Assembly: GCA_947475715.1 (NCBI GenBank)
Contig: CANJNY010000027.1
Coordinates: 1 to 45,363 of the forward strand
Direction: 5' to 3'
DNA length: 45,363 nucleotides
Source: Prolixibacteraceae bacterium
GTDB lineage: Bacteria > Bacteroidota > Bacteroidia > Bacteroidales > Prolixibacteraceae
Part shown: positions 3,001 to 20,041 of the stretch, piece after piece
Position numbering within the stretch: the first letter of the stretch is position 1
How the letters are laid out: every line of letters starts with the position of its first letter
The notes under the pieces: generated by a model
The model's database searches: none
Told to the model about the DNA's origin: nothing
The model's input: only the letters and a program-made list of their open reading frames with translations
Made by a program: the position numbers and the translations under genes

Positions 3001-5083
3001 AAATATTATTTCTGAAATTCCGCGTATTCGTCGATGCGTCACTCCAAAGCGCGTAGGAAGGGTTTGTGCCAGAAGCCGGACTACCTTCGATATTTACTGT
3101 ATTGAAATATAGTTTGTTGTCATTTCCGATGGCCCCCGACTCAAATATTCCATAGAGGTTAGCTAATGAGTTGCCTCCTATACTGACAATATTATTGGTG
3201 TAGGTACTGTTTCCTGAAAGAATTTTTATTCCATACAATGATGGGGATGAGACGGTATTACCGGACACTGATAAGCCTGAGAGGAAATTACCCGAAATAT
3301 CACTTGCCGTTGTACCACCCCCAAAGAGTAATCCGATCACACCTCCGCTAAAGGAGGCAAATGAATTTGAGAGGTTGTAAATCCTGTTTCCGGTGATTGC
3401 CTGTGCGACAGACGATAAATTGTTTAACAATATCCCAGCCACAGATGGTGTTATCGTAACATTACTGTTTCCATTCGCATTGGAGAGATTATTTATGATG
3501 TTGTTGCGAAGCGTATTGGTGCCATTCAAAACGGAGATGCCGTAAGTGGCACCAAGAGCATTAACATCGGTATTTGTAGTTCCGTTCGTCAGATTGGCTA
3601 TCGTATTTCCTGAAATAGTTACTGATCCCGTGCCTGAACTACTGATTCCAAAGACTTTCTGAACATTTGCTGTTGAATTTGAAGAGGCGTTTATACTATT
3701 GGCAGTGGTGGTGCTTCCAATTATATTATTGCTCATGGTTGTCGTCCCGGCACTACTTGATTTATAAATTCCATAGAAGTTGGTAGCCAAAGTGGCGCTA
3801 TTGGATACGGTAATCCCGGCAATTGTATCATTTTGAATGGATACCAATCCGGTACTCGAAGAATTTATACCATAAAAATTGGCTCCGGTTGTTGCTGCAG
3901 TCAACGTGATTGAACCTGTTCCAGTTGCTGAACCTATTGTGTTGCCATTTGTTGTTCCAATATTGACATCTCCTCCTGTAATATTTATACCGTACCAATC
4001 AGCATTCCCACTGTTTGCGTAAGTGAAATTTTGAATTCTGTTATTCTGCACATTTGTGGCGGTAGTTGTGCCAACATTGAGATTAATGGCAGTGAATTTG
4101 TTATTGCTCGTATTTTTATTCCAGGCATTGCCTCCGCAATGGGCTGCACTCCCTCCAATAAAATTTCCGGATATTGTAAAGTTATTCCCGGAAGTGTTGG
4201 TAATGGATATTACAGTCAAATCCCCAGAACCGCTTGTCGCAAAAGGGTTGTTGGTTTCATAAAAACTGTTCCCAATGATCGACCAGGCTGTTGTATTCGA
4301 AGATAGAGATATTGCAGTGCTTCCAATCCTTTTGAAAAAATTATATATATTGTTGTTAGTGATCGTATTGCTGCTATTTTCATGCGATGCTGTACCTAAA
4401 GAATAGATGACATTGTATGCTCGGGATCCATCATTGGATGTGGTCAAATCATTGTGCTCAATCGTATTATTACTATTCCCTGTTGTAGTGTTTGTCGTAT
4501 TAAATTTTAAAATTGCGTTTCCGGAATTAGTAACCATCGCTTTGAGCGTGCAATATTTTATGGTATTCGAACTGGCTCCGTTGATAAATTCTATCACTGA
4601 AGTCGTTCCGGTTGAAGGATTTGTAATCGTTAAGTCGGTTAAGCTTCCGGTCGCATTTACCCGCCCGTCAATGGTGATATTTGAGGCTCCATTAAGTTGA
4701 ATAAGCGACGAGGCCGCCGAACTCGTAATAGAGAGTCCCGTTGCCGTGGGATACATATTTATTGAAGAATAAATTGCCGATCCGGTTCCGCTTCCATTCA
4801 ATACCGCCGATGCAGTCTCAGAAGTTGTCGAATTAATATTAATTACAATTACACCCTGATGAGTTCCTGCATTAATCGCATCAAACGCATCTTTTATAGT
4901 ACTAAAATTGCCTGAAGTTGTCCCTGTGGTAGCTGTTAACGTAACATTAGCAGGAGGTGGAGGTGCCGAAAGTGCTAAAGTAGGTTTTATAAGAATCAAA
5001 AGCGAACCTATCAGTATCGTTTTTGAGATATATTTCAATAGGATAAGAGATGATATATTACAATGAAGACTCCTTCTTTTCAT
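1..5083 (-). CDS. Giant secreted beta-helix / Ig-like / LamG surface protein (3' end beyond window)
   Basis: The frame stays open from an ATG at 5083 to the window edge, at least 1694 residues; the C-terminus is outside. I confirmed one continuous frame at three well-separated motifs (2671, 1819 and 505 share the phase of the ATG). Residues 1-34 are a long signal peptide ending near LALSAPPPP. Residues about 35-810 are Ser/Thr/Asn-rich repeats with recurrent NTI, NNI and FYGI motifs, typical of a right-handed parallel beta-helix, closing with the usual MGAYE end motif. Next come an Ig/PKD-like stretch, a DUF1566-like domain (about 990-1157, with GGIIAYIL, GYTDWFLPSYDEL, YWTSTEY and VRAAR), further Ig-like modules, and a LamG/concanavalin-like domain (about 1374-1561, WIYLAG to MDEIRLWNTARTQEQI). 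A PKD-like module reaches the edge. Probably a cell-surface or secreted adhesin or glycan-binding protein. A sorting signal may lie in the missing C-terminus. Substrate unknown. Confidence 0.85.
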   Translation of the reverse strand, partial: MKRRSLHCNISSLILLKYISKTILIGSLLILIKPTLALSAPPPPANVTLTATTGTTSGNFSTIKDAFDAINAGTHQGVIVININSTTSETASAVLNGSGTGSAIYSSINMYPTATGLSITSSAASSLIQLNGASNITIDGRVNATGSLTDLTITNPSTGTTSVIEFINGASSNTIKYCTLKAMVTNSGNAILKFNTTNTTTGNSNNTIEHNDLTTSNDGSRAYNVIYSLGTASHENSSNTITNNNIYNFFKRIGSTAISLSSNTTAWSIIGNSFYETNNPFATSGSGDLTVISITNTSGNNFTISGNFIGGSAAHCGGNAWNKNTSNNKFTAINLNVGTTTATNVQNNRIQNFTYANSGNADWYGINITGGDVNIGTTNGNTIGSATGTGSITLTAATTGANFYGINSSSTGLVSIQNDTIAGITVSNSATLATNFYGIYKSSSAGTTTMSNNIIGSTTTANSINASSNSTANVQKVFGISSSGTGSVTISGNTIANLTNGTTNTDVNALGATYGISVLNGTNTLRNNIINNLSNANGNSNVTITPSVAGILLNNLSSVAQAITGNRIYNLSNSFASFSGGVIGLLFGGGTTASDISGNFLSGLSVSGNTVSSPSLYGIKILSGNSTYTNNIVSIGGNSLANLYGIFESGAIGNDNKLYFNTVNIEGSPASGTNPSYALWSDASTNTRNFRNNILANLRSTTGGTNLHYAAYLNYDVATNLTMNYNNYYVSGTGGTTGHYNGTDKTDKTIVTDQDLNSLSQNPVFPTPVGTLPTNYIPALTASGVGGTGITTDYAGATRGATPKMGAYESCAAPPAPTAIGTTICSGNTANLTSTGMGTQGWYDAPSGGNWLHGGSSFTTPVLNSTTTYYVQDSICVSSQTRSVVVVTITSMLPTFTTQPGYSACVGTNVTYTTEAGKANYTWVIPGTLNSDYTITSGGTTSDNSLILKWLTEGSKIVTVNYTLNGCSAANATSSTPTTISLSSGGTALTSGPLAVGMSYQGGIIAYILQSGDPDYSSGQTKGLIAASADQSSSIWWNLDMNSLTNSSGSTIGTGMINTEKIISVQGQPQINYAAGLARSYGGGGYTDWFLPSYDELNLMYLNIGPGGLGANMNIGNFAPEWYWTSTEYDQSDPWSQHFDQTGQLGGQWKTAPLHVRAARYFTALTSSAPSISIPYATSTTLSASGYTGSTLKWQKSVDGINNWTDVTDGSGFTSASYTTPNLSATTYYRIMVTSGTCDAAYSTTATVIVNPLPTITAAVAATGVCASQGSQTTTLAYSATTETPTSYSIVWDSTPLNNFSAVTDSPLPASPINITLPAAALAGTYRGTLTVKNANNCVSRGSSFTLKINSSPVVSISASADTTFCTGNSVNLAPASNISSLTFNGSSGYVSVPHNSGQVATQMTIEGWIYLAGTSSGGGNILMKGNYGYGIHIGADGCSSGNKLGYWVTSQCGTTLLSSGTIPSNIWTHIAVVVTTSPAKTLSFYINGVLSGSSNSSDITINNGGNGPLYIGTQGTCFCNFFNGKMDEIRLWNTARTQEQIQSTMNKEVQANSANLQLYLKADNANGTMVTDYSTNGTNGTFNGGMGWDISSKAPLLNYSSYLWSPGGQTTSSINVTTSGKYALSITDENGCSAISREKTVTTNPLPVPSFTSQPGVTVCAASAVTYTTQAGQTNYIWSIPGVLNTDYAITAG

Positions 5084-5563: not shown

Positions 5564-8500
5564 TTAGGGTTTACTGAGCGTAGCCGAAGCAGGAACCTGG
5601 CTCCTGTATTTCTTCACTAAATTATTTCCGGCCCCTTGAATTATTGCACTTTTCAACGGTGCGACATTCTCCATTCCAAAATTGCATGCCCATTTCGAGA
5701 AATCTAATACCGATACTTCGCCGTCACCGTCGATATCCGATGAGAGGTAGATATGCAGCTTTCCGAAATCGGTGGCCCAGGCCGAAAAGTCGAGGACCGA
5801 AATATTCCCGTCACGGTCGGCATCAGCCGCCACCATCCCAAAAACTCCCGGATTAATTTGCCGGTATCCTGCACCACCTCCGTACGCCTTGTCAATTGCA
5901 GCGGTGAAATCATATACGTAATTATTTCCGGTGCCAGCCATTTCCGTGGCGCTCATAATGGCAATATGGTTACGGTGCGAGATGATCAAATAGAGATTAT
6001 TGGTAATTGTCGGATTGCCGATAGCTGGAAGTGCCGTTCCATCAAGATCGGCCAGTGTTCCGTCCGATTTTAGGAAGCATGCTTTTGGCCAGCCCGCAAG
6101 CTTTGTTGCCGGTAGCGCCTCTGCCGGTGTTGCAGCTTCGCGAAGTTCAAGCAGTACCCAGTCGACCATATCTGCCGGAATGGACACAACACTTTCTGTT
6201 CCGGCGTAGTTCCAGGGTGCAATGTTGTAAGGTTGTGTCAATGGGATCAGCCCGGCTGAATTCAGGGTTGTTGTCATCACGCTGTTGGTTCGGTCGTAGA
6301 AACCGTCGAGCATTACCTTCACCTGAAGACGATGCGGGGCAATTACCGTAACTGTTGCAGTTCCACTCAAATCACCCGAAGTCGCCGTAGCCTGACCATC
6401 ACTCAAAGCAACAAGGGTATAAGTGGTGGTTGTTGCTGGACTAACCGGGAACGCATAAGGGCTTGAAACAATATTATTTACCGTAACAGGCGTGGTCCCA
6501 TCAGTGTAGGTTACACTCCAGGGAGCAACTCCAGTTAACGCAATACTCAATGGCGTAGCCGTTCCGGCAAAAACCGTGGCGCTGCCACTGATAGCTCCCG
6601 TTGGAGTTATAACAGAACCACTACCCTGCACTGCAAAAGTATAGGTTCCTTCATCACAATCATCATTAGTGATGGTAACGGCAGCTGTTTTCGTGCCTGA
6701 TGAAGTTCGTGTAAACGTAAGCGTAAATGTGGTTGAGGCATCAGCTGCTATCGTAGCCGGCAGTGTTGTGCCTCCCACAACAAAATCTGCCGCATTTGCT
6801 CCACTACTTACAATACTACTTATCGAAAGTGCTGCAGCACCTGTATTTTGTATCGTATAGGTTTTAATAACCGGGGTATTTAATGCCACATTACCAAAGT
6901 CAGTAGCATCTGCAGTCGCAGGAGTTGTATCTCCGGAAACAATATTTATTCCATTGCCTTTTACATTGATTTCATTACCCGTATTTCCACGAAAAACATA
7001 AAACCCACCATCACTTCCAATAGCATCCTGAACTCCATCGTTATTAAAATCATTAACAATGACATCCGTAAGAAAAATATCTCCTATATAATACGTAAGA
7101 GGGGTGCTAAAAGTACCCGTGCCATCTCCTTTAAAAACTGAAATCGAATTGTAATCCGTACAAATAAGGTCTAAATTTCCATCACCGTTAAGATCACCAT
7201 TTTTAATTGCTCGTGGGGTGTTTTCCGAATAAATTGTGGTATCAAAAACAAAATTACCGAGCCCGTTTCCCTTGAATAAATCAATCCCATCTGAGGTAGG
7301 ATTTACTACAGCTAAATCTAAATTTGCATCTTTGTCGAAATCTCCGGAAACAATATCAAGACCACCTAAATCAGCAATAGCAACTTTTGGCTGAAAGGTA
7401 CCATCACTTTTACCTTTTAGAAAATAACTGGGAATTCCTGACCAGGCAACAGTAACCATATCTTTAATACCATCTTTATCAAAATCTTCAATTAATACGT
7501 TATCGGCTTTTATACCGGTATCTGTAATTGTATAAGCCCCCAAGCCATCACTTAATAGCATTAATGAACTAGTACAATCAACAGTCCCATAAGGATAACA
7601 TACAACTATAAAGTCAGCTATTCCATCTCCATTTAATTCAGTTACAATTACAGATCTGGATTCGTAATAGGAATGGTTTGAATTTGTAAGTGGTATATTT
7701 GTAGTATGAGTGAATGCCCCTGAACCATCACCATACAATAATACGATATTATTATTATTCGTAGGAACAGCAAGATCCAAATGGCCGTCACCGTTAAAAT
7801 CAGAAACTCCAATGTTGATCTTGGTAGGACGACTACCAAAATCGATTGACGATGCTGCCAAATCCGGAACGGCTACTACCAGCGTACCACTAAAACCCCC
7901 ATTTCCATCTCCTAAACGAATTGCAATTCCACCAATTGCATTTAATGCTGCCACATCCTGATAGCCATCTTCGTTAAAATCGCCATTGACTAAGGAAACT
8001 GTAGTCCCTTCAGTAGAAACCTGGGTTGGACCAGCGAAGGTTCCCGGGCTGCACTTAAGCGCGTTTCCCTGAACCCAAAAGGATTGACTTAAACAAGAAG
8101 TTGTAGATACTGTAACCAATGCACTCTTTAATCCAACATCAGGCAAGGCTGGGTTAAAGTTCACGTTAAAAGTTAATCTTTCATTTGCAGCAAGAACAAT
8201 AGACGATGTTACATCGATACCACTTATACTGAAAGATGATGCATCCAGCCCACCTAACCCAATAGACACAATCGATATTGGTCCTGTAGCTGATTTATTT
8301 GCAATGGTATATTGCAGTGTTTTTGTAGTTCCGTTAACAACCCCTTCAAAATCAGTTCCGTTTGCTTTAGTTGTTTTAGACCCCATCTTAAGGGCAATTC
8401 CTTTTCCTAGAACCTCCATTTTAGCGTAGTCTGGAATTAAAACGGCTCCGTTGACTAAAAAATCTATTCGTCCATCTTCGTTAAAGTCTGCAAGGCGAAG

Positions 8501-11500
8501 GGTATAAACCTGGCCAGATACAGCGATGGAAACGCCTGACTGAAAAGTGCCATCTCCATTACAATAATGAAAGGTTATTGCATTAAGACTTCCGCTTACT
8601 ATATCTTGAAACCCATCGCCATTGACATCGCCTACCGCAAAGGCAAGCGTTGTAGGATCTACGACTATTTCATTGACACTCCCAAATTTAGCATCATTGG
8701 GAATATTTGTTCCCAAAGTACAATAAAGTTTTCCTGTCATATCAAGATAAACAAGATCCTGATCCTGATCACCATTAAAATCGCCGATTGCTGATTCTCG
8801 GATCCATTCGCCTGGAATATAGCTGTCAGAACTTAATGAAAAATCATTGTTTCCAATAAGAATTTCTCCTGTAGAAAAAATATCTGATTTAAAATCCTGG
8901 TTAAAATCCCCTGTTTGCGGATTTCCTCTGAAATATTGACTATTTATAACACTAAAAGTTCCATCCCCATTTCCTTCCAATAAAACTGTACCATAATAAT
9001 TATCTGAACCTAAATAAAGATCTATTCTGCCATCATTATTTAAATCACATTTTATAAGCTTAGGAAAAAAACTAGTTTGATAATCATTCTCTACACTTAC
9101 ATTTAGTGTTCTAGGATCAGGCTGTAATGTAAGCCCCCCTAAACCATCACCCAAATAAATTTTTAAAATCCTTGTTGTATAACTCCCAGTTAATGTATTT
9201 GTAGCTACATCTAAGTTACCATCACCATTTAAATCAGCAAGGACTAAATTAGCCAGAGATGGATTATCGAAACCAGTACCAGATCCAAAAGCAGTAAAAC
9301 CGCCTTGTCCATCGCCCAAAAAGATCTGCAAACTGTTATTAACGAATTTTATATAATCCTGATGACCATCATTATTAAAGTCACCAACATCCTGAGCAAA
9401 AATATGATTATTAGCAAGAGTTAATCCGGCAATGGGCAACCCTGGCCCTGCCAGACAGACAGCATTCCCTACATGCAGACTAAATGTTTTTAGCACGCCA
9501 ACCCCGGCATTTACAGTGACAACATAGTTACCTGCGGGATAGGCATTGGTGATAGTCACCACTCCTGTAACAGGATTTACTGTCAATGTTCCCTGGAAAT
9601 TGGTATTCGCGTATGCCGTAATGCGCTGAGAATAGGTTGGCACTGCAGCAGGTGTTACTATACTATTGCCTCCGGCATTTGCAATAGTGACATCGCTATA
9701 ATTCCCAAGTATTGGTAATAATATTGTTGCCTGAATGTTGAAATTATAAGCACTTTCATCACAGTCGTCGCTTCTGATCGTTACGATTGCTGTTTTTGCA
9801 GGAATAGTAGCAGCATTAACAGTTACCGTAAAAGTGGTTGAAGCACCAGCCCCTATTGTTGCCGGAAGCGTAATCCCACCTATTGCAAACGATGACGCAT
9901 CAGCACCAGAAAGCGCAATAGCTACAACTGATAAATTACCTGTGCCTGTGTTTTGTATGGTATAGGTCTTTGCTTTTGGTGTATTCAAGGCCACCGATCC
10001 AAAATCAGTATCATCTGCTACATCTGGTGAGCTATCTCCCGAAACAATGTCTGCTGCATTACCTTTAAGGTTAATTTCAGCACCATTGGGTGCACCCGGA
10101 AAAATAGAAAAATTATCCGTTGTAATGCCACCACTAGATGTTCCGATATCCTGAATGCCATCAGTATTAAAATCACCCACAATCAACCTCAAACTATTAG
10201 CTAATGAATTGCTTTGCAATTCGGTAGCGCCATAAAAAGTGCCGTCTCCGTTACCATATCGCACCGATACCGTCTTCAAAGAATTATTTCCGGTGGCAAA
10301 ATCCATTTTGCCATCACCATTAAAATCGCCGCTTACTATTTGCTGAGGACTATCGCCTACCGCTATATAGGTTGGAGCAGCAAAAGTACCATCACCATTA
10401 TTTCTTAAGAAGGCAACCGTTCCCGGTGTATTGTCCAAAGCTGAAAGGATGTCGCTTTTGCCATCGCCATCAAAATCACCTACAGTACTAAATCGAATGA
10501 CAGCGCCAAGATGATAAATAGTAGGATCACCAAAACCACCATTGCCATTGCCGAAATAAATATAATTATTACCTAAAACGGTGCTACCCATAGAAAGATC
10601 GGTAAACCCATCGCCATTAAAATCCCCTTTTTCTATATAGTTTAAGGCTATTTCATTTGAATAGGTATTTAAATTACTAAAACCACCCTTCCCATTGCCT
10701 TTAAAAACGGCAAATCCCAGTGTTCCACTTACTACAATGTCAATTATCCCATCCTGGTCCAAATCTTCACTTAAAACGGATGTTGTAGAACCAATTGAAC
10801 TAATATAAAAGTATGGAAGAGAAGTAAACCCTCCGGAACCATTACCAAGATAAACACTTAAGGATTGACCTGATTTAACTAAAATATCAGCATTTCCATC
10901 GCCATTAAAATCATTGATGGTAAAAGTTACGGCTCCGCTAACGGATAAATTAGTTGAAGTGGTAAAGCCCCCCAAACCATTTCCTAATTGTATAGATATA
11001 AGTTTAGAGGGGCCACTTTGATTTAGGAACACTGCAAAATCCTGGTAACCATCATTATTAAAATCGGCTACTTCTGTATAAACTGGATTTACTCCTACAC
11101 TCAAAGAGTTAGGAGGTAAAAACTGCCCTTGGCTGCAAAGGGGGTTCCCTACTGTGAGTGCAAAGGTGTGGATTAACCCAAAACCCGCATTTACAGTAAT
11201 TTGATACGTACCTGCGGGATAAGCATTGGTAATTCGTACAGCACCTGTAGTACGATCTACACTTAATTTTCCTTTAAAATTAGCCGTTGTAGTGACGGTA
11301 AGGTTAAAAGCAATATTAGTAGGGGCAGCTGAAGGTGTAATTATGGTATTTCCTCCTGCAGTGGGCAGGGTTGTAGCCGCATAATTGCCAAGGGTAGATG
11401 TTGATATGCTCGTTGCCTGAACGTTAAAAGTAAAAGTATAGTTTCCTGTGTCGCAGTTAGGGATATTGATCGTTACCGCAGCTGTTTTTGTTCCTAAAGT

Positions 11501-14500
11501 GGTAGAATTATAGATTAGGTTAAAGGTAGCCTCGCTGCCAGCAGCTATAGTTGCCGGTAATGTGATCCCGCTTATTGAAAATAAAGAGGCATCAGTTCCG
11601 CTTATTCCTATGCTACTGATGGGAAGAGCACCAGTTCCTGTGTTTTGAATCGTATATGATTTTGTGATTGTAAATCCATTTCCAAAATCAGTATTATCGG
11701 CTGTAGCAACACTTGTATTGCCATTTGGTATGGTAACACCATTTCCTTTGAGGTTTATATCTACTCCATCTTCGCTACCCAAACGGATGGAAACATTACC
11801 TGAATCACTATTCGCTGTAGCAAAATCCTGCTTACCATCGCCGTTAAAATCGCCTATAGCTAATGAATTAGGATTTGTTCCAACAGTAACCTCGGTGTTG
11901 ACACTAAAGCCACCGAACCCATCGCCAAAACGAATAGAAACTGTTCCCATAGTATTTGCCGTAGCAATATCTTGTTTGCCATCGCCATTAAAATCGCCTG
12001 CAGCTACTGAACAAGGACCTGCTCCAACTCTAACCTCGGTATTGCCACTAAAGCCTCCAAGCCCATCACCCAAGCGAATGGAAACAGAACCTGAAGTATA
12101 ATTTGCCGTAGCAAAATCTTGTTTTCCATCGTTATTAAAATCACCGATAGTTACTGATAGACCCTCGTCTCCTATAGGAATAATGGATGTGTTACTAAAG
12201 CCTCCGTCTCCATGTCCCAAATAAATCATAGCGCGATTACTAACCAGCGCAACAAAATCTTGTATACCATCGGTGTTAAAATCACCGATAGCTATTGAAA
12301 TTGAATAAGTTGCAGTACCGTAGGTCTGACGTGCTCCACTAAATCCACCCAGCCCATCACCCAGGCAAATGGAAACCATTCCTCTAGTAGCAATTGCCAC
12401 AGCAAAATCCTGCTTCCCATCGTTATTAAAATCACCTATAGCTAAGGATCTTGGATTCGATTCAACGGTGACCTCAGTTGTGCCACTAAAACCACCGAGC
12501 CCATCGCCCAAGCGAATGGAAACGTTGCCTGAAGCTTCCCAAATGGAAACGGAGCCTGAAGCATTCGAATTTGCAGAAGCAATATCTTGTTTACCATCCC
12601 CGTTAAAATCCCCGATAGCCACTGATCGTGGATTTGATCCGACAGCGACATCAGTGGTTCCACTAAATCCTCCCAGCCCATCGCCCAAGCGGATAGAAAC
12701 GGAACTTGAACCAGAATTTGCCGTAGCAATATCTTGATTGCCATCCCCATTAAAATCGAATATTGCAACTGATTTTGGAGACCCTCCGACTGCGATTTCG
12801 GGAGTTGGAGGCGCATAGAACTGCCCCTGGCTGCAAACGGTATTGCCAACGGTAAGGGTAAAAGTTTTAGTAATACCATAACCTGCATTAACGGTTACAG
12901 CATAGGTTCCTGCCGGGTGGGCATCGGTGATACACACCACACCAGTACCTGGATTAACAGTAAGTGTTCCTTTGAAATCGGTTGTTGCATTCGCCGTTAC
13001 ACTTGTGCCAACTGTTTGTGCTGCATCTGGTGAAACCGTGGCATTGCCTCCGGCTGTGGCAATTGAGGTATTTGCGTAATTACCCAATGTTGGTATAAAT
13101 GAACCTGCTAGAATCGTAAAAGTATAAGCTCCTTCACCGCAAATGTTATTATTTATGGTAATGGTTGCTGTTTTTAATACTGCACTATTATCTGTATTTA
13201 AAATATTGAAGGTCGCTTCAGTACCTGTAGCTAAGGTTATAGGAAACACAATTCCAATTATTAAAAATTTTGATGCATCTGCGCCGCTTATTCCTATATT
13301 ATTGATGGTAATTGGGGCTGAACCGGTACTTTGAATAGTGAAAGTTCTGGAATTACTATTTCCTCCGCTTCCAAAATCAGTATTATCTGTTACGGAAGGC
13401 GAAGTATCACCTGATGCAATGTCTACGGAATTTCCTTTTAGATTAATGGCTGAAATTCCTCCCAGGCGGATGGAAACTTTACTATCATTGTTTGCAGTAG
13501 CGATATCTTGTTTGCCATCGCCATTAAAATCGCCTATTGCTATTGAACTTGGAGCTGATCCAATAGCGACCTCGGTGATACCACTAAAGCCACCGAACCC
13601 ATCTCCCAAGCGAATGGAAACGGTTCCTGGAGTAGTATCAGAATAATCATAAAGATTATACCTGGGATAAACACTATTATTAGCCGTAGCAATATCTGGC
13701 GCACCATCGCCATTAAAATCGTCGATAACTATTTTAAATGGATTTGCTCCGACAGAAACATTGGTGGTGCCACTAAAGCCACCGAGACCATCTCCCAGGC
13801 GAATGGAAGCGGTTCCTTGAAAAGCATAATTATTTGCTGTTGCAATATCTTGCTTGCCATCGCCGTTAAAATCGCCTATTGCTACTGAATATGGATATCT
13901 TTCGACAGCGACTTCGGTTGTGCCACTAAAGCCACCCAGACCATCGCCCAGGCGGATGGAAACGGTTCCTAAAGAAGCATAATCAGCAGTAGCAATATCT
14001 GGCGCTCCATCGCCGTTAAAATCACCGATAACTACTGTTTTTGGACTTTCCCCTACAGCGATTTCGGTGTTACCACTAAAGCCGCCTAGTCCATCGCCCA
14101 AACGAATGGAAACTGTTCCTGAATAATTATTATTGGCCGTAGCAAAATCTTGCTTGCCGTCGCCGTTAAAATCACCGATAGCTAATGATCCTGGATTAGA
14201 CCCTACAGCGACCTCGGTGTTACCACTAAAGCCACCGAGCCCATCTCCCAGGCGAATGGAAACGTTATTTAAGTAGGTACTTCCTATAGCAAAATCTTGG
14301 TTGCCATCACCGTTAAAATCACCGATAGCTATTGAACTTGGGTACCATCCGGTAGCGACGGTGGTTGTCCCACTAAAGCCACCGAGCCCATCTCCCAGGC
14401 GAATGGAAACTCCAGGTAAATAATAAGTTCCATAAGTGGTAGCAATATCTTGTTTGCCATCGCCATTAAAATCGCCAATAGCAACTGATTGTGGAAATGA

Positions 14501-15055
14501 TCCGACAGCGAACTCAGGTATTGCAGGCGCATAAAACTGCCCCTGGCTGCAAACGGTATTGCCAACGGTAAGGGTAAAGGTTTTAGTAATGCCAGAGCCT
14601 GCATCAACTGTTATTACATAGGTTCCTGCGGGGTGGGCATCTGTGATACGCACCACACCAGTGGCTGGATTAACAGTAAGTATGCCTTTGAAATTACTGG
14701 TTGTATGTGCCGTTACACTTGCGCCACCCGTTGGTGCTGCATCAGGTGTAACCGTAGCATTGCCTCCCGCAGTGATTGGGGTATTGGGGTAATTACCCAG
14801 GGTATAATCTGCGGTCCCCTGCGCAAAAAACGTAGCACTGGCTGTTGTGCCTGAATTAGACACCCCAATAGCTGATACTGAACCAATACCAAAGGCAGAT
14901 GGGCTGGTTAATTTGGTTCCCGTAATGGCGGCCAAAGTTCCCTGGTTTCCACTTGCAGGGATAAATGAGGTTATGCTTGGAGCCTGAGCCAGAAGTTTTG
15001 TTTCTCCAAAAAATAAGATTGAAACAAACAGGAACAAGCAGGATATTTTTGTCAT
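5564..15055 (-). CDS. Giant secreted protein with 35 FG-GAP/VCBS repeats (five seven-bladed propellers) and dockerin-like C-terminus
   Basis: 3163 residues. It starts with a signal peptide (residues 1-24, ending LLAQA) and a short IPT/TIG-like segment. Then come five large units. Each has seven copies of an integrin-alpha-like blade built on a DFNGDG(K/N)QD calcium loop and an SIRLGDGLGGF strand, followed by a choice-of-anchor-D/Hydin-like Ig module (INLKGN, TDFG, YTIQNTG). Units 1-4 are preceded by a roughly 90-residue module beginning LGNY and ending TLTVGN. An Ig-like module follows the fifth unit, then a C-terminal module common in Bacteroidota (VDWVLLELREA, HRNHIAIMSA) and two EF-hand loops at about 3075-3128 (DADRDGNIS and DIDGDGEVS), as in dockerins. 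I do not recognise a type IX sorting domain in the last 100 residues. Probably an extracellular calcium-stabilised adhesin or ligand-binding protein. Ligand and export route are unknown. A shared regulatory palindrome lies about 55 bp upstream. Confidence 0.93.
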   Translation of the reverse strand: MTKISCLFLFVSILFFGETKLLAQAPSITSFIPASGNQGTLAAITGTKLTSPSAFGIGSVSAIGVSNSGTTASATFFAQGTADYTLGNYPNTPITAGGNATVTPDAAPTGGASVTAHTTSNFKGILTVNPATGVVRITDAHPAGTYVITVDAGSGITKTFTLTVGNTVCSQGQFYAPAIPEFAVGSFPQSVAIGDFNGDGKQDIATTYGTYYLPGVSIRLGDGLGGFSGTTTVATGWYPSSIAIGDFNGDGNQDFAIGSTYLNNVSIRLGDGLGGFSGNTEVAVGSNPGSLAIGDFNGDGKQDFATANNNYSGTVSIRLGDGLGGFSGNTEIAVGESPKTVVIGDFNGDGAPDIATADYASLGTVSIRLGDGLGGFSGTTEVAVERYPYSVAIGDFNGDGKQDIATANNYAFQGTASIRLGDGLGGFSGTTNVSVGANPFKIVIDDFNGDGAPDIATANNSVYPRYNLYDYSDTTPGTVSIRLGDGFGGFSGITEVAIGSAPSSIAIGDFNGDGKQDIATANNDSKVSIRLGGISAINLKGNSVDIASGDTSPSVTDNTDFGSGGNSNSRTFTIQSTGSAPITINNIGISGADASKFLIIGIVFPITLATGTEATFNILNTDNSAVLKTATITINNNICGEGAYTFTILAGSFIPTLGNYANTSIATAGGNATVSPDAAQTVGTSVTANATTDFKGTLTVNPGTGVVCITDAHPAGTYAVTVNAGYGITKTFTLTVGNTVCSQGQFYAPPTPEIAVGGSPKSVAIFDFNGDGNQDIATANSGSSSVSIRLGDGLGGFSGTTDVAVGSNPRSVAIGDFNGDGKQDIASANSNASGSVSIWEASGNVSIRLGDGLGGFSGTTEVTVESNPRSLAIGDFNNDGKQDFAVAIATRGMVSICLGDGLGGFSGARQTYGTATYSISIAIGDFNTDGIQDFVALVSNRAMIYLGHGDGGFSNTSIIPIGDEGLSVTIGDFNNDGKQDFATANYTSGSVSIRLGDGLGGFSGNTEVRVGAGPCSVAAGDFNGDGKQDIATANTMGTVSIRFGDGFGGFSVNTEVTVGTNPNSLAIGDFNGDGKQDFATANSDSGNVSIRLGSEDGVDINLKGNGVTIPNGNTSVATADNTDFGNGFTITKSYTIQNTGTGALPISSIGISGTDASLFSISGITLPATIAAGSEATFNLIYNSTTLGTKTAAVTINIPNCDTGNYTFTFNVQATSISTSTLGNYAATTLPTAGGNTIITPSAAPTNIAFNLTVTTTANFKGKLSVDRTTGAVRITNAYPAGTYQITVNAGFGLIHTFALTVGNPLCSQGQFLPPNSLSVGVNPVYTEVADFNNDGYQDFAVFLNQSGPSKLISIQLGNGLGGFTTSTNLSVSGAVTFTINDFNGDGNADILVKSGQSLSVYLGNGSGGFTSLPYFYISSIGSTTSVLSEDLDQDGIIDIVVSGTLGFAVFKGNGKGGFSNLNTYSNEIALNYIEKGDFNGDGFTDLSMGSTVLGNNYIYFGNGNGGFGDPTIYHLGAVIRFSTVGDFDGDGKSDILSALDNTPGTVAFLRNNGDGTFAAPTYIAVGDSPQQIVSGDFNGDGKMDFATGNNSLKTVSVRYGNGDGTFYGATELQSNSLANSLRLIVGDFNTDGIQDIGTSSGGITTDNFSIFPGAPNGAEINLKGNAADIVSGDSSPDVADDTDFGSVALNTPKAKTYTIQNTGTGNLSVVAIALSGADASSFAIGGITLPATIGAGASTTFTVTVNAATIPAKTAIVTIRSDDCDESAYNFNIQATILLPILGNYSDVTIANAGGNSIVTPAAVPTYSQRITAYANTNFQGTLTVNPVTGVVTITNAYPAGNYVVTVNAGVGVLKTFSLHVGNAVCLAGPGLPIAGLTLANNHIFAQDVGDFNNDGHQDYIKFVNNSLQIFLGDGQGGFTAFGSGTGFDNPSLANLVLADLNGDGNLDVATNTLTGSYTTRILKIYLGDGLGGLTLQPDPRTLNVSVENDYQTSFFPKLIKCDLNNDGRIDLYLGSDNYYGTVLLEGNGDGTFSVINSQYFRGNPQTGDFNQDFKSDIFSTGEILIGNNDFSLSSDSYIPGEWIRESAIGDFNGDQDQDLVYLDMTGKLYCTLGTNIPNDAKFGSVNEIVVDPTTLAFAVGDVNGDGFQDIVSGSLNAITFHYCNGDGTFQSGVSIAVSGQVYTLRLADFNEDGRIDFLVNGAVLIPDYAKMEVLGKGIALKMGSKTTKANGTDFEGVVNGTTKTLQYTIANKSATGPISIVSIGLGGLDASSFSISGIDVTSSIVLAANERLTFNVNFNPALPDVGLKSALVTVSTTSCLSQSFWVQGNALKCSPGTFAGPTQVSTEGTTVSLVNGDFNEDGYQDVAALNAIGGIAIRLGDGNGGFSGTLVVAVPDLAASSIDFGSRPTKINIGVSDFNGDGHLDLAVPTNNNNIVLLYGDGSGAFTHTTNIPLTNSNHSYYESRSVIVTELNGDGIADFIVVCYPYGTVDCTSSLMLLSDGLGAYTITDTGIKADNVLIEDFDKDGIKDMVTVAWSGIPSYFLKGKSDGTFQPKVAIADLGGLDIVSGDFDKDANLDLAVVNPTSDGIDLFKGNGLGNFVFDTTIYSENTPRAIKNGDLNGDGNLDLICTDYNSISVFKGDGTGTFSTPLTYYIGDIFLTDVIVNDFNNDGVQDAIGSDGGFYVFRGNTGNEINVKGNGINIVSGDTTPATADATDFGNVALNTPVIKTYTIQNTGAAALSISSIVSSGANAADFVVGGTTLPATIAADASTTFTLTFTRTSSGTKTAAVTITNDDCDEGTYTFAVQGSGSVITPTGAISGSATVFAGTATPLSIALTGVAPWSVTYTDGTTPVTVNNIVSSPYAFPVSPATTTTYTLVALSDGQATATSGDLSGTATVTVIAPHRLQVKVMLDGFYDRTNSVMTTTLNSAGLIPLTQPYNIAPWNYAGTESVVSIPADMVDWVLLELREAATPAEALPATKLAGWPKACFLKSDGTLADLDGTALPAIGNPTITNNLYLIISHRNHIAIMSATEMAGTGNNYVYDFTAAIDKAYGGGAGYRQINPGVFGMVAADADRDGNISVLDFSAWATDFGKLHIYLSSDIDGDGEVSVLDFSKWACNFGMENVAPLKSAIIQGAGNNLVKKYRSQVPASATLSKP
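6980..14535 (-). repeat. Coding repeat array: 5 x 7 VCBS blades with ~1.7-kb super-repeat
   Basis: Blade DNA recurs every 150-200 bp. The larger unit of linker, seven blades and anchor-D module recurs about every 1.7 kb. A 44-bp stretch at 14535-14578 is repeated identically at 12819-12862, 1716 bp away. Diverged copies lie near 11121 and 9450. The N-terminal units (near 14.5-11.8 kb) are highly alike, while those nearer the C-terminus are diverged. Confidence 0.85.
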
Positions 15056-15398
15056 ATTTAAGTGTAAAAATCAAATGGTAAGATTAATTGATTACATTTT
15101 GTTCCGCAACCCCTAATATTAGGGGGTAGGCAGACGATTCATATTGGAATAGCTAGTGTCTGGCGTAGACAGATGATTTTTACGTTTCATTTGAAATAAG
15201 GTTTTTATAAATTGAATAAGGGCCGGGGTTTTTGGCAGAGTTAAAACTTTTATCGCAATGGCCATTACTGTAACTCCCTTTGCAATAACGAAAACATACA
15301 AGATTTTAACTCAATTCAAACATTATCTTCACAAGTTTGTTCCTTAATAAATTGATTGTTAAAAATTTAACAGGACTTTCTTTTCCTCGAAAACAAAG
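15056..15398. other. Divergent intergenic region between the VCBS gene and the sensor kinase
   Basis: 343 bp with no gene. It contains the palindrome at 15110-15125 and, between this and the VCBS start, TACCATTTG on the minus strand (15080 to 15072), one base longer than a TAnnTTTG -7 box. A small inverted repeat (TGTCT/AGACA, 15157-15171) lies just beyond the palindrome. No exact -7 box was found for the kinase gene. Confidence 0.6.
15110..15125. promoter_or_regulatory. 16-bp perfect palindrome, copy 1 (candidate response-regulator operator)
   Basis: CCCCTAATATTAGGGG is a perfect inverted repeat centred 15117/15118, about 62 bp from the start codon of the giant VCBS gene and about 280 bp from the kinase start. 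The same core recurs at 18647-18664 before the response regulator. Dyad symmetry and position fit a dimeric NarL/LuxR-type regulator site. This role is inferred. Confidence 0.6.
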
Positions 15399-18300
15399 AT
15401 GAATATAAGAGCGTGTATTATAAGTTTAATGACTGGAATGATGCTCTTATTGCTGACTCCTTCCATTGCTCAGCAGGCCAGAAACCTCAGGTTTGAAACC
15501 ATTACAATCAACGATGGACTTTCGCAGGGGATGGTCAATGGCATCATTCAGGATCATCACGGTTTTATGTGGTTCGCAACCAATGACGGTCTGAACCAAT
15601 ACGATGGTTATAACTTTACAATATTTAAAAATGATGTTGACAACCAGAATACACTCGCTGCGAATTTTCTTCGGTACCTGTTCGAAGATTCCAAAGGGCG
15701 TATCTGGATCGGAACTGCCAACAACGGCTTGGATTTATTTGACCGCGAATCCGAATCGTTTATCCACTTTAAGCATAACCCGGACAACAATAATTCACTT
15801 AGCGATAACAGCATAACCTCGATAAGTGAAGATAAGGCAGGTGATCTCTGGGTGGGTACCCTTAATGGGCTCAACCGTATTCATATCCAACCTCAAAACG
15901 GGATAGATGAAAATGAGACTAAATCAAAATCAGTTTCTGAGGAGTATTTTAAACGTAATGAGGTTAAGTTTACCAAAATTATTTTCGACCGGTCGCAACC
16001 CGAATTTGAGTTCTTCAGGCAAAAAACTGATTTTCCACTGGGCGACTGGCGCTCTTCCAATTTCTTCATCGATCAAACAGGCGCAGTATGGGTCTCGGCT
16101 TACGAATTTTTGTTCCGGGTGCATCTGTCTGAAAACGGCGGCTATTCGGTTGAAAGACTTAATGTTTCAGATTACATCCAACCCAAAGAGAGAGACAAAC
16201 GGGATAGAGGATTGGAGAATTTCGTCCAGGTATTTATTGCAAAACCCTCCTCCGATGGATTCTATATGCTTTGCGAATATGGCATTACGGAGGTAGATGC
16301 AAAAACCAACAAAATCCGCTTTCTATCACAGCAGAGGTATAAAAGTGGAGTCTTTAATTTCCTCTCCGTAATGGATGAGAATGGCGTTATTTGGACCAGT
16401 GAGGATAGTAAACTTAATTATTGGGACACCAAAGAGCAGAAGTTTACAATTCCTTACACCTATAATAATTCCATCGCCAACTCCCTGAACTATGTCTGTT
16501 GCAGCTATTGCGATCAAAGCGGAAATATCTGGATAGGCACCAAAGGGTATGGACTACTGAAATACAATCCACGTTCGGAACGCTTTCATTCAACAGGTAA
16601 TCAGAATATTAATCAGATGGCTGCAGGAATTGACAATAAAATTCTTGTCCTGCGCCAGCCCTGGGATGAACTGTTCTATGCATATGATCCGGTATCACGA
16701 TCAGAACATTCCCCGGTTTCAAAGGCAGGATTTGCTCATCTGGGAATTACCGATCATTATGGCTACCAGACCCGATCGGTGCTTCAGGATGCAGACAGCA
16801 GTTACTGGATTGGACGTGTCGGATTATACCATTATATCCCTAAAAGCAGGAAAATAAGTTGTTACTGGAATAACTTTGATGATGTTTTTCCGCTGTATGA
16901 TGATCACAAAGGTAACTTATGGTTCGGAAATACAAACGGCATTGTCTGTTACAATAAGCAGAGAAACAACTCTGAAGAATACCCCTTCCCGGTTAAAAGT
17001 ACGATTGGGCCTTATGATTTTTGTCAGGCCATCAGCAGAGGCGAAAACGGAATAGTCTGGCTAGGGACACTCATTGGGCTCTTTAGTTTCGATCCTTCGA
17101 CCAAGGTGTGGCACCACTACCTGAATATGCCAGGTGAACCCAACTCGCTAAGTAATGACCTGATATTTTGCATTGAACCCGATCCGGTTCATCCTGCAGA
17201 TTTCCTTTGGATCGGAACAAAGGGGGGTGGACTCAACAAATTTGATTTAACGACCAAAAAATTTAAACGATATTCACTATCGGATGGATTGCCAAATGAT
17301 GTAATTTATGGAATTCTAAGTGATGAAGATGGCAATTTATGGATGAGTACCAATAAGGGAATTTCGATGTTTAATATAGGGCAAAATCGTTTTACCAACT
17401 ATGAGGAAAAGGATGGTTTGCAGGGAAACGAGTTTAACCGGAATGCCTATTGCAAAATCGGAAAAAACACCCTATGTTTTGGAGGGCTTAATGGCTTTAA
17501 TTACTTTAATCCAAAAGAATTAACCGGCAATCAGATAATTCCCAATACCGTAATAACTAAAATAGGAATTAATAACCAGCCTGCTGAACCGTCAGATAAG
17601 CGTGCTGTCCTAAAAAAACCGGTCTATCTCACCGAAAAAATAGAGCTCTCATACAGTCAGAATATCTTTAATCTGGAATTTAGCTCCCTTGATTTTAATT
17701 CTTTAAAAAATAAGCGCTACCAATATAAATTGGATGGGTATGATAAGGATTGGATTTATTCCGGCAGTCGTAATACCGCAAGTTATACCAATATGGATCC
17801 AGGATCTTATACGTTTTATGTTAAAGGATCAAACGATGACGGAGAATGGAATAAGAAACCAACTATTTTGGCTATCGAAGTTTTAGCGCCATGGTATATG
17901 ACCTGGTGGTTTCGGTTATTTTCATTTTTAGTTGTTACATCAGGATTGTATGGACTTTATCGTTACCGGGTCAACACTATTCTGGCAATGCAGGAAGTTC
18001 GGAATAATATAGCCAGCGACCTGCATGATAATATTGGATCGAATCTGAGTGCAATCTCGATATTTACCGATATTGCAGGAAATCCAAATAAATCGAAAAC
18101 TGAAGTCTCCGGGTTATTGAAAAAAATTGCCAATTACACGCTGGTATCCCAGGAGGCCATGAGCGAAATTGTCTGGATGATTAACTCCAGACATGACCGG
18201 CTTGACCAGCTGGTCACCAGAATGCAGGGCTTTTCTGGCGAATTACTCGAGTCCAAAGGCATTGAACTGCAATTTTATATCAATGAAAATGCCGATTCTG

Positions 18301-18605
18301 TAATTTTGAATATGAAACAGCGGAAATCGGTTTACCTTCTCTTTAAGGAAGCAATTAATAATATTTCAAAATATGCAGATGCTTCTCTTGTTAAAGTTCA
18401 AATCTACCGGATTAAAAAGATGCTGATTTTAGAAATTGCCGACAATGGAATAGGATTTGATTTGGATAAGGTTTCAAATAAAATTACCATGGGTGGTAAT
18501 GGATTGCCGAATATGCGAAGAAGAGCAAAGGAATTGCGTGGCACGTTAACCATCGATACGAGCAAGGGGAAGGGTACACGCATTTATCTTCAATTTTCAA
18601 TATAA
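15399..18605 (+). CDS. Two-component regulator propeller (Reg_prop/Y_Y_Y) sensor histidine kinase
   Basis: 1068 residues. A signal peptide (1-24, ending PSIAQQ) leads into a large periplasmic region with about eleven Reg_prop-type blades (GFMWFATNDGL, GRIWIGTANNGL, GDLWVGTLNGL, GNIWIGTKGYGL and others), expected to fold as one or two beta-propellers. A Y_Y_Y domain follows at about 758-825 (YQYKLDGYDKDW, YTFYVKGSNDDG), then one membrane helix (about 836-858). The cytoplasmic part is a HisKA_3-type dimerisation domain with phospho-acceptor His876 in DLHDNIGS, and an HATPase_c domain with N-box FKEAINNISKYA (about 982-993) and DNGIGF near 1015. It is a NarX/DesK-like kinase, not a hybrid: no receiver or AraC domain is attached, unlike many polysaccharide-locus regulators. 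Its partner is the response regulator 93 bp downstream. The ligand is unknown; the propeller suggests an extracytoplasmic signal such as a glycan fragment (inference). Confidence 0.93.
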   Translation: MNIRACIISLMTGMMLLLLTPSIAQQARNLRFETITINDGLSQGMVNGIIQDHHGFMWFATNDGLNQYDGYNFTIFKNDVDNQNTLAANFLRYLFEDSKGRIWIGTANNGLDLFDRESESFIHFKHNPDNNNSLSDNSITSISEDKAGDLWVGTLNGLNRIHIQPQNGIDENETKSKSVSEEYFKRNEVKFTKIIFDRSQPEFEFFRQKTDFPLGDWRSSNFFIDQTGAVWVSAYEFLFRVHLSENGGYSVERLNVSDYIQPKERDKRDRGLENFVQVFIAKPSSDGFYMLCEYGITEVDAKTNKIRFLSQQRYKSGVFNFLSVMDENGVIWTSEDSKLNYWDTKEQKFTIPYTYNNSIANSLNYVCCSYCDQSGNIWIGTKGYGLLKYNPRSERFHSTGNQNINQMAAGIDNKILVLRQPWDELFYAYDPVSRSEHSPVSKAGFAHLGITDHYGYQTRSVLQDADSSYWIGRVGLYHYIPKSRKISCYWNNFDDVFPLYDDHKGNLWFGNTNGIVCYNKQRNNSEEYPFPVKSTIGPYDFCQAISRGENGIVWLGTLIGLFSFDPSTKVWHHYLNMPGEPNSLSNDLIFCIEPDPVHPADFLWIGTKGGGLNKFDLTTKKFKRYSLSDGLPNDVIYGILSDEDGNLWMSTNKGISMFNIGQNRFTNYEEKDGLQGNEFNRNAYCKIGKNTLCFGGLNGFNYFNPKELTGNQIIPNTVITKIGINNQPAEPSDKRAVLKKPVYLTEKIELSYSQNIFNLEFSSLDFNSLKNKRYQYKLDGYDKDWIYSGSRNTASYTNMDPGSYTFYVKGSNDDGEWNKKPTILAIEVLAPWYMTWWFRLFSFLVVTSGLYGLYRYRVNTILAMQEVRNNIASDLHDNIGSNLSAISIFTDIAGNPNKSKTEVSGLLKKIANYTLVSQEAMSEIVWMINSRHDRLDQLVTRMQGFSGELLESKGIELQFYINENADSVILNMKQRKSVYLLFKEAINNISKYADASLVKVQIYRIKKMLILEIADNGIGFDLDKVSNKITMGGNGLPNMRRRAKELRGTLTIDTSKGKGTRIYLQFSI

Positions 18606-18646
18606 TTTTATTGGTTCTTTCCGATAACTTATTCTCTTGTATCTCA

Positions 18647-18664
18647 CCCCCTAATATTAGGGGG
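18647..18664. promoter_or_regulatory. 18-bp perfect palindrome, copy 2 (candidate autoregulatory operator)
   Basis: CCCCCTAATATTAGGGGG lies in the 93-bp gap between kinase and response regulator, centred 18655/18656. It is about 31 bp upstream of the -7-like TAACTTTG at 18687, so the centre would sit around -44, a usual place for an activator site. It contains the same 16-bp core as 15110-15125. It could fold as a hairpin after the kinase gene but has no T-run, so a terminator is less likely. Confidence 0.6.
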
Positions 18665-18686: not shown

Positions 18687-18694
18687 TAACTTTG
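18687..18694 (+). promoter_or_regulatory. Bacteroidota -7 box (TAACTTTG) before the response regulator
   Basis: TAACTTTG matches TAnnTTTG exactly. No TTG is found at the -33 spacing, which fits an activator-dependent promoter served by the palindrome upstream. The GTG start is only 5 bp downstream, so any transcript would be leaderless or nearly so. Confidence 0.4.
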
Positions 18695-18698
18695 TGAT

Positions 18699-19334
18699 GT
18701 GATAAAAATACTCATATACGAAGATAACTTAGCGAGGCAGGAAGCCTTAAAATTTCTTATCCAGGATCAACCGGATATGGAATTAACAGGAATTTTTGAG
18801 AACTGCAGCAATGTTGTCAGCCAGGTAAAAATGCTAAGTCCTGATTTAGTATTAATGGATATTCAGATGCCAATTGTCAACGGGATTACAGGGGCCAGAT
18901 TGATCCATGAAAATTTTCCCGGTGTAACCATACTTATGCAAACCGTTTTTGAAGATGAGGATTCCATTTTCAATGCCTTACAAGCCGGAGCACATGGTTA
19001 TATTCTTAAAAGTACCCCTCCGGCAAAACTGATTGAGGCAATCAAAGATTCACTCGAAGGGGGAATACCCATGACACCTGTAATCGCCCGTAAAGTGGTC
19101 GAAGTTTTCCGTCACCGGCCTGTGCAATCACTACACGAAGTGTCGGAACTCACAGAAAAAGAGATGAGTGTATTGGAATTGCTTTCAAAGGGGATGAGCT
19201 ATAAGATGATTGCAAATCAATATGGCATCAGCTGGCATACCGTAAACGGACATGTCAAAAAGATCTACGAAAAACTGCATGTTAATTCTGCTACCGAAGC
19301 GGTTGCCAAATTAAAGGAAAAGCATTTCCGTTGA
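18699..19334 (+). CDS. NarL/LuxR-family response regulator
   Basis: 211 residues from a GTG start. This start is needed because it supplies beta-strand 1 and the acidic pair Glu8/Asp9 of the receiver. Phospho-acceptor Asp54 lies in DLVLMDIQMP, with Thr82 and Lys104 as the conserved switch and catalytic residues. Residues about 148-207 are a GerE/LuxR helix-turn-helix (LTEKEMSVLELLSKGMSYKM, then GISWHTVNGHVKKIYEKLHV). It follows the sensor kinase in the same direction and is almost certainly its partner. The palindrome and -7-like box directly upstream suggest autoregulation. The likely second target is the giant VCBS gene, whose upstream region carries the same palindrome (inference). Confidence 0.93.
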   Translation: MIKILIYEDNLARQEALKFLIQDQPDMELTGIFENCSNVVSQVKMLSPDLVLMDIQMPIVNGITGARLIHENFPGVTILMQTVFEDEDSIFNALQAGAHGYILKSTPPAKLIEAIKDSLEGGIPMTPVIARKVVEVFRHRPVQSLHEVSELTEKEMSVLELLSKGMSYKMIANQYGISWHTVNGHVKKIYEKLHVNSATEAVAKLKEKHFR

Positions 19335-19357: not shown

Positions 19358-20041
19358 TCATGCGCATGCCAATGTTGCAATGCTAACCCTCACCCCGGGA
19401 ATCTGCAGTAAAGGGATACAACATGCCTCGAGGGTCGCACCTGTTGTCACCACATCATCAACCAAAAGCAAATGTTTACCTGCAAGTTCTGGTGCGTTTT
19501 TAACACTGAAAATTCCGCTTACATTTTCCCATCGTTCAAACCGTCCTTTGCGGGTCTGCGAGGCGGTATGGACAACCCTGATCAGGTTCCCACAGATCAG
19601 GGGCCTCTCCATAGCTTCTGATAATCCGTTACAGATCTCCCGGCTTTGGTTAAATCCCCGCTTCCGCTCCTTTTTAGGATGAAGTGGCACAGGAAGTATG
19701 GCATCAATAGATTGGTATAAAGGACTTTGAATTAAATCATAACCAAAGAGCATCCCTAACTTTTGCCCAACTTCGCGGTTTCCTTTATATTTTAGCTCAT
19801 GCAAAAGATGCTGTAAACGACCCCCTTTATCGAAGCGACAAAATGCAGTCGCTAATTCAAGTGGTACCCGTCCGATAAATTGCTGAAATACCGGGTTCTC
19901 CCCCTGCTCGTGATAGTTGGTCCGCGGAAGGTCGGCCAGACAATTCAAACATAACACCTCCTCACCCCTTAAAAGCGAGGTGTTACATCCTGCACATAGC
20001 CGGGGATAGAAGAGCGAGATAAGATCATCAAGCAAGACCAT
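19358..20041 (-). CDS. comF: ComF-family amidophosphoribosyltransferase-like protein
   Basis: 227 residues. An N-terminal zinc-ribbon-like cluster (Cys16, Cys19, Cys31, Cys34) is followed by a type I phosphoribosyltransferase fold with the PRPP-binding motif LLVDDVVTTGAT near the C-terminus and PVPLHPKKERKRGFNQS in the middle. This architecture is that of ComF/GntX proteins, linked to DNA uptake in competent bacteria; the true substrate is not established. It is divergent from rnr with a 248-bp gap and convergent with the response regulator. The length is normal for the family. Confidence 0.9.
   Translation of the reverse strand: MVLLDDLISLFYPRLCAGCNTSLLRGEEVLCLNCLADLPRTNYHEQGENPVFQQFIGRVPLELATAFCRFDKGGRLQHLLHELKYKGNREVGQKLGMLFGYDLIQSPLYQSIDAILPVPLHPKKERKRGFNQSREICNGLSEAMERPLICGNLIRVVHTASQTRKGRFERWENVSGIFSVKNAPELAGKHLLLVDDVVTTGATLEACCIPLLQIPGVRVSIATLACA

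Follow-up and report, generated by a model that had tools for sequence, protein, structure and literature searches.

Why does one rare palindrome stand both before the gene of a giant exported-looking protein and before a response regulator gene close by? The question concerns a stretch of 45,363 nucleotides (the window), which is the entire contig C27 of a Prolixibacteraceae assembly (G000; 5,768,687 bases, 315 contigs, 98.94% complete). The palindrome, CCCCTAATATTAGGGG, occurs as exact copies at 15110-15125 (operator 1, minus strand), in the promoter of the giant VCBS gene, and at 18648-18663, between the genes of a sensor kinase and a NarL/LuxR-type response regulator. Because it is rare, because it takes the same promoter position in both copies and because other palindromes are equally placed at related regulators, we consider it highly likely that the palindrome is the operator by which the regulator switches on its own gene and the giant VCBS gene. 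The original prediction had proposed an operator of the neighbouring NarL-type regulator, and the dyad symmetry and a recurrence of the palindrome at a related regulator in another genome (L015, below) lend it further support.

The second copy widens by one pair per side to CCCCCTAATATTAGGGGG, an 18-bp perfect dyad at 18647-18664 (operator 2, plus strand) in the regulator gene promoter. Read in the promoter sense, the 18 bases ACCCCCTAATATTAGGGG are common to both copies and form a 100% inverted repeat. These exact matches agree with the two places first described, and the accompanying claim of no further copy in 45 kb also held up, since no third place within 3 mismatches of the palindrome was found in the window. 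Shuffles of the window gave a mean of 0.20 places at 3 mismatches or fewer, and two places were reached in 2 of 100 shuffles. A mismatch scan of the 16-mer across G000 returned 2 exact places, 0 at 1 or 2 mismatches and 12 at 3, while the reversed pattern, used as a control, gave 39 places at 3 mismatches or fewer and 0 exact. Scaling from the 12 to 39 places seen over 15,120 3-mismatch words, we expect about 0.001-0.003 exact copies genome-wide. A chance origin of the two copies is excluded for practical purposes. Many random copies across the genome would have spoken against a regulatory site, and with 2 exact and none at 1 or 2 mismatches the assembly does not hold them; a whole-genome repeat or uptake word is likewise ruled out by there being only two copies in it. 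By exact or near copies, the regulon consists of two promoters only.

Both copies sit in a common layout: a 16-bp core (7-2-7), 3 nt, 20 nt and a -7-like box. In the VCBS promoter the core is followed directly by TTG at the -33 position (15107-15109, minus strand), 20 nt and TAATCTTA (15079-15086, minus strand); in the regulator promoter it is followed by GGT, 20 nt and TAACTTTG (18687-18694, plus strand, 23 nt after the 16-bp operator core), which has 6/6 letters of the consensus TAnnTTTG. The available part of a study on a flavobacterium places the TAnnTTTG box at -12 to -5 (PMC9723704). From this position, transcript starts are predicted at 15074 and 18699, with both dyads centred at -43.5. 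The VCBS transcript would then have a 19-nt leader (54 nt separate the first copy from the ATG at 15055), whereas the box at 18687-18694 puts the regulator's predicted start on the GTG start codon itself, and we infer that the regulator message is leaderless. The distances originally estimated by eye, about 62 bp from the VCBS start and about 44 bp before the regulator's predicted transcript start, correspond to centres 62.5 from the ATG at 15055 and 43.5 nt upstream of 18699. The 7-2-7 dyads stand where NarL/FixJ-type sites would, upstream of the core promoter, and regulator binding to them is a prediction.

The predicted binder, a response regulator of 211 aa with a GTG start (18699-19334, plus strand), consists of a receiver and a GerE domain (Response_reg 4.6e-21, GerE 9.3e-16). 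NarL structure 1a04 aligns to its residues 4-204 (E 1.5e-25), and its score of 125.7 bits against the NCBIfam PRK10651 NarL equivalog lies far below the cut-off of 250. Its recognition helix reads HTVNGHVKKIY. The sensor kinase (1068 aa, 15399-18605, plus strand) has, by domain matches, a Reg_prop propeller, Y_Y_Y, HisKA_3 and HATPase_c; HATPase_c matches at 2.7e-10, HisKA_3 at E 0.00042 with 21.2 bits, slightly under the 24-bit cut-off, and UhpB, NarQ and NarX match its kinase part below their cut-offs. A domain search found no receiver or helix-turn-helix match in the kinase protein, and the regulator is a separate gene. With a receiver and GerE regulator and a HisKA_3/HATPase_c partner kinase, the pair belongs to the NarL/FixJ-type two-component systems. 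The predicted target (3163 aa, 5564-15055, minus strand), divergent from the kinase gene, has a signal-like N-terminus, FG-GAP/VCBS repeats and 5 choice-of-anchor D stretches.

Does the palindrome accompany such regulators elsewhere? One scan of 84,980 species found the exact 16-mer in 24 stretches. Among these copies 13/24 widen by at least 3 pairs, about half of them then followed by a T run, and the T-run-bearing extended copies look like terminators. The idea that the 16-mer might be a general mark of kinase/LuxR pairs did not survive: none of the other 139 family genomes contains it exactly, because the operator sequence differs between regulator clades. The palindrome does recur in L015 (JAIBAH010000056.1), from a Bacteroidia metagenome-assembled genome (MAG; G528), where 53 nt separate it from the start of the regulator gene downstream; over 208 aa this regulator and the window's have 48.6% identity (tblastn). 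Behind the L015 regulator comes an alpha-amylase-like protein that has a type IX sorting tail, and no kinase lies beside the regulator within the stretch examined. The recognition helices are also alike (TVNSHIKKI in L015, TVNGHVKKI in the window): at the third helix position both have N, which occurs in 7 of 93 readable helices, with R in 74 (the helix pattern was unreadable in 11/104 regulators).

Four further sites at 2 mismatches were found in G528, against 1 place for the control, and we count none of them as evidence: two fall within genes, one between two convergent genes and one at the end of a HisKA_3 kinase gene. The last (TCCCTAATATTAGGGA, L221 6273-6288) overlaps the end of the gene for a 7TMR-DISM/HisKA_3 kinase. 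It stands 147 nt ahead of a secreted subtilase and does not have the fixed -7 spacing; the L015 regulator is alone in its stretch, and this kinase could be the partner it lacks. In Verrucomicrobia (L034, CAMPAA010000184.1), an exact palindrome at 3587-3602 has a kinase/NarL-type regulator pair on one side and the divergent gene of a secreted-like 879-aa protein on the other; TTGTTG, 16 nt and TAAAAT come after it, and the regulator is 31.6% identical to the window's (tblastn match). Possibly this is the same logic in another phylum, and we do not count it as evidence. Two more copies are suggestive and equally left out of the count: in L025, a short part of which has a tblastn match, a GerE protein lies about 0.7 kb from the palindrome, and in L027 (a Siphonobacter MAG) the palindrome lies inside a 44-bp perfect inverted repeat (about 1381-1424), roughly 100 nt upstream of what by eye is a response-regulator-like gene, without a tblastn match.

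More general support comes from related regulators that carry other palindromes. Besides the window and L015, we examined 102 loci among the listed regulator matches (40 from the family and own genome, 33 from the order and 29 from the phylum). In many relatives, one clade-specific dyad lies upstream of the regulator and is repeated before the next gene behind it; in others no such dyad was found by eye or by score. Examples are ATGACCCCAAAGGGCTAT, present twice in L114, and the pairs TCCCATAATGATGGGA and TCCCATCATCATGGGA (L238/L259), CTACATGATCATGTAG and CTACATGATAATGTAG (L260, with a third copy at 2 mismatches before another secreted-like gene) and TGACACATGTGTGTCA and TGACACACGTGTGTCA (L261); TCACATATTCATGTGA is a clade motif. 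When the likeness of each locus's own upstream and downstream regions was compared with 60 shuffles, p was below 0.05 in 23/75 tests, the strongest being the window against its own VCBS promoter (z 9.1). Own downstream regions also ranked above foreign ones, with 17/73 loci in the top 5% where 3.7 are expected (binomial p 9e-8, treating loci as independent; L170 was left out for its short flank), and no foreign region beat the window's own.

The position of the dyads is equally regular. Scoring 7-2-7 symmetry by its gap to perfect TAnnTTTG boxes, with no operator assumed, gave a dyad peak at 22-23 nt before the box in 3/4 sets (z is taken against other gaps and is not a probability). Upstream of family and order regulators the peak rests on 23 boxes (z 4.5 and 4.3 at 22-23), and without the window on 22 boxes (z 4.4 at gap 22, 3.7 at 23); behind these regulators 27 boxes give z 7.3 at gap 23, and the upstream peak replicates in the phylum set at gap 23 (z 4.1 from 7 boxes). 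For TTG, all four sets have their peak at exactly 23. A joint layout score was computed for the 208 regions of 104 loci, among them the window and L015; 69 regions pass, compared with a shuffle mean of 10.2 and a maximum of 15 in 20 shuffles, so some of the 69 are chance.

Private motifs are also scarce within genomes. Strict copies in five relatives' genomes number 1, 2, 3, 1 and 1, one of the three being on another contig. At 2 mismatches or fewer, G439 has 4 places (2 at the regulator locus) and G501 has 5 (3 on the regulator's contig), with 0 for the control in each. In the own-genome paralogue L104 the upstream/downstream pair was not significant (shuffle p 0.82), and by eye an asymmetric TAAC...GGGG element is present in both places. 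In a signal-peptide count, 30/31 loci were positive compared to 141/305 control open reading frames; the 31 loci had been chosen by hand because their downstream site could be seen, and a crude hydrophobicity rule served as the test. As a separate observation, a LuxR-type regulator gene in L068 has a 52-bp perfect palindrome (about 1382-1433) near its 3' end.

The closest replica is L256, a longer stretch around L225 from a genome (G656) of the same class as the window. It has a Reg_prop kinase (10546-13650) and a regulator (9716-10357), and between them TCATTGGATTCAATGA, followed in the regulator sense by TTG. On the far side of the kinase are an exact copy and a 2-mismatch copy, after which come TTG, 20 nt and AATCTTTG and then the divergent gene of a secreted-like protein, with its start at 13902. 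By its predicted genes and sites, L256 repeats the window's divergent layout with another palindrome. Among 104 regulators, FastTree places the window in a group with all six other TVN regulators of the set and L164 (support 0.92). L226, nearest to the window by branch length, has TCGCTAATATTAGTGA upstream, in which the core CTAATATTAG of the window dyad is kept, the outer bases are changed and six of seven pairs are kept; this site is not among the 69 scored ones. Because L225 belongs to the same clade and carries a different dyad, there is no strict correspondence between helix residue and half-site.

Several points weigh against our reading of the palindrome as an activating operator. Binding and expression at both sites are predicted from sequence only. 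The VCBS -7-like box fits only 4/6 consensus letters, and the regulator promoter has GGT instead of TTG after the dyad. Among the relatives, 52/75 upstream/downstream comparisons were not significant against shuffles, 139/208 regions fall under the joint-score threshold, which was itself chosen after most loci had been seen, and the phylum set does not repeat the dyad peak behind regulators, where 8 boxes give z 1.5 for gap 22 and 0.4 for gap 23 and the highest value falls at 26. The likeness of operators between loci grows with regulator identity only once the latter exceeds 70%, which makes for a loose link between sequence code and phylogeny. Finally, in both promoters the dyad lies directly against the -33 position, and sites so placed can also repress.

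The palindrome could therefore be the regulator's operator and yet repress its own and the VCBS gene, with relief by phosphorylation or its loss. We think this unlikely. In the regulator promoter a perfect -7 box goes with the lack of TTG, a combination often seen in activator-dependent promoters. NarL does repress from some 7-2-7 sites, according to the accessible part of PMC4549865. However, the centre at -43.5 is near the NarL activating sites at yeaR and ogt, while the repressing frdA 7-2-7 site lies at the transcript start, as far as the available portions of PMC7419079 and PMC4549865 describe them.

It is a good deal less probable still that some other transcription factor binds the palindrome and that its place beside the kinase/regulator pair is incidental. 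Regulator binding is only predicted, and the L015 regulator lacks an adjoining kinase, both of which would suit another factor; but the 16-mer is common to two genomes at homologous regulators, and clade-specific dyads take the same promoter position in other regulator loci. To the reading of the two copies as transcription terminators, attenuators or the ends of a mobile cassette carrying the kinase we give next to no weight. The extended copies elsewhere with their T runs recall terminators, yet neither window copy is in the terminator scan's list of 5, no T run follows either, and copy 1 lies between divergent genes; an intrinsic terminator or attenuator was rejected for its absence from that scan. 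The two copies do flank the kinase gene as an inverted repeat, as cassette ends might, but the kinase is the only long open reading frame between them and the flanks beyond the dyad have little in common (at best, a direct alignment extends by 11 bases, of which 7 agree), and cassette ends were rejected as well.

Under the preferred reading of an activating operator, the Reg_prop kinase would sense an extracytoplasmic ligand and phosphorylate the regulator, and a regulator dimer would bind each 7-2-7 dyad at a centre of about -43.5, abutting the -33 element. The bound dimer may then recruit RNA polymerase and turn on the secreted protein gene together with the regulator's own gene (positive feedback), with hardly any other gene in the genome likely to be switched. 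The sequence itself shows the sites, how rare they are, their common geometry and the return of this layout in relatives; we infer binding by this regulator, activation rather than repression, the dependence on phosphorylation and the signal or ligand.

Behind the regulator lies a convergent phosphoribosyltransferase-like gene (19358-20041, minus strand), which is not part of the switch; because it is convergent, there is no target on that side. Many relatives have a second operator copy behind the regulator, and none was found there in the window (z -0.3 compared to shuffles). At the other end, after the VCBS gene and on the same strand, a second very large exported-looking protein of at least 1694 aa with Laminin_G_3 and Ig-like domains is encoded at 2-5083 and runs off the contig.

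On balance we favour a wider conclusion, with moderate confidence: Bacteroidota modules of kinase, LuxR-type regulator and secreted protein are probably insulated by private operators. Each clade would have its own 7-2-7 dyad, at a fixed spot (dyad, TTG, 20 nt, TAnnTTTG) before regulator and secreted genes and in few copies per genome, and recognition-helix residues would serve as a specificity code for many orthogonal switches. Candidate pairings of helix and half-site are TVNxH[VI]KKI with CTAATATTAG, TVRSHIKKI with TCACAT and TVRKHIENI with TACGnA. Regulator homologues occur in at least 150 of 395 sampled phylum genomes (E up to 1e-38), and to our knowledge the targets of most of them are unknown. 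If the operator indeed lies in the promoters of both the regulator and its secreted product, targets and binding sites could be predicted from sequence alone, natural variation could reveal the specificity determinants of NarL-type regulators, and the modules could be used as orthogonal switches in Bacteroidota. We found no description of operator pairs tying a Reg_prop/LuxR pair to one exported protein in the open literature, which leaves most subscription papers outside its coverage; as far as the open literature tells, the private operator pair and its phylum-wide spread are new.

Among known systems, the window pair is NarL/FixJ-type, neither NarL nor a hybrid two-component system (HTCS), and would act like NarL at simple promoters. 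As in E. coli NarX/NarL at yeaR and ogt, a HisKA_3 kinase and a REC-GerE regulator go with a 7-2-7 inverted repeat. According to the part of PMC7419079 available, the 7-2-7 sites through which NarL activates lie directly against the -35 element, the one at ogt being centred at -44.5, and the window dyads likewise have their predicted centre at about -44 against the -35/-33 element. That same part lists 26 gene regulatory regions for NarL, unlike the two genomic sites of the window system (PMC7419079). The window further differs from NarX/NarL in its Bacteroidota -33/-7 promoter, its Reg_prop sensor and an exported protein as the target. The HTCS of Bacteroides have an AraC-type output domain. 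Their periplasmic Reg_prop and Y_Y_Y sensor, as described in the accessible part of PMC3243724, is like that of the window, but they join kinase and receiver in one polypeptide, whereas the window kinase and LuxR-type regulator are separate proteins. Finally, P. gingivalis PorY/PorX/SigP, which controls type IX secretion, is also, by the available portion of PMC4800418, a Bacteroidota two-component control of secretion; it acts on secretion-machine genes via a sigma factor, whereas the window system would act through a local operator pair.

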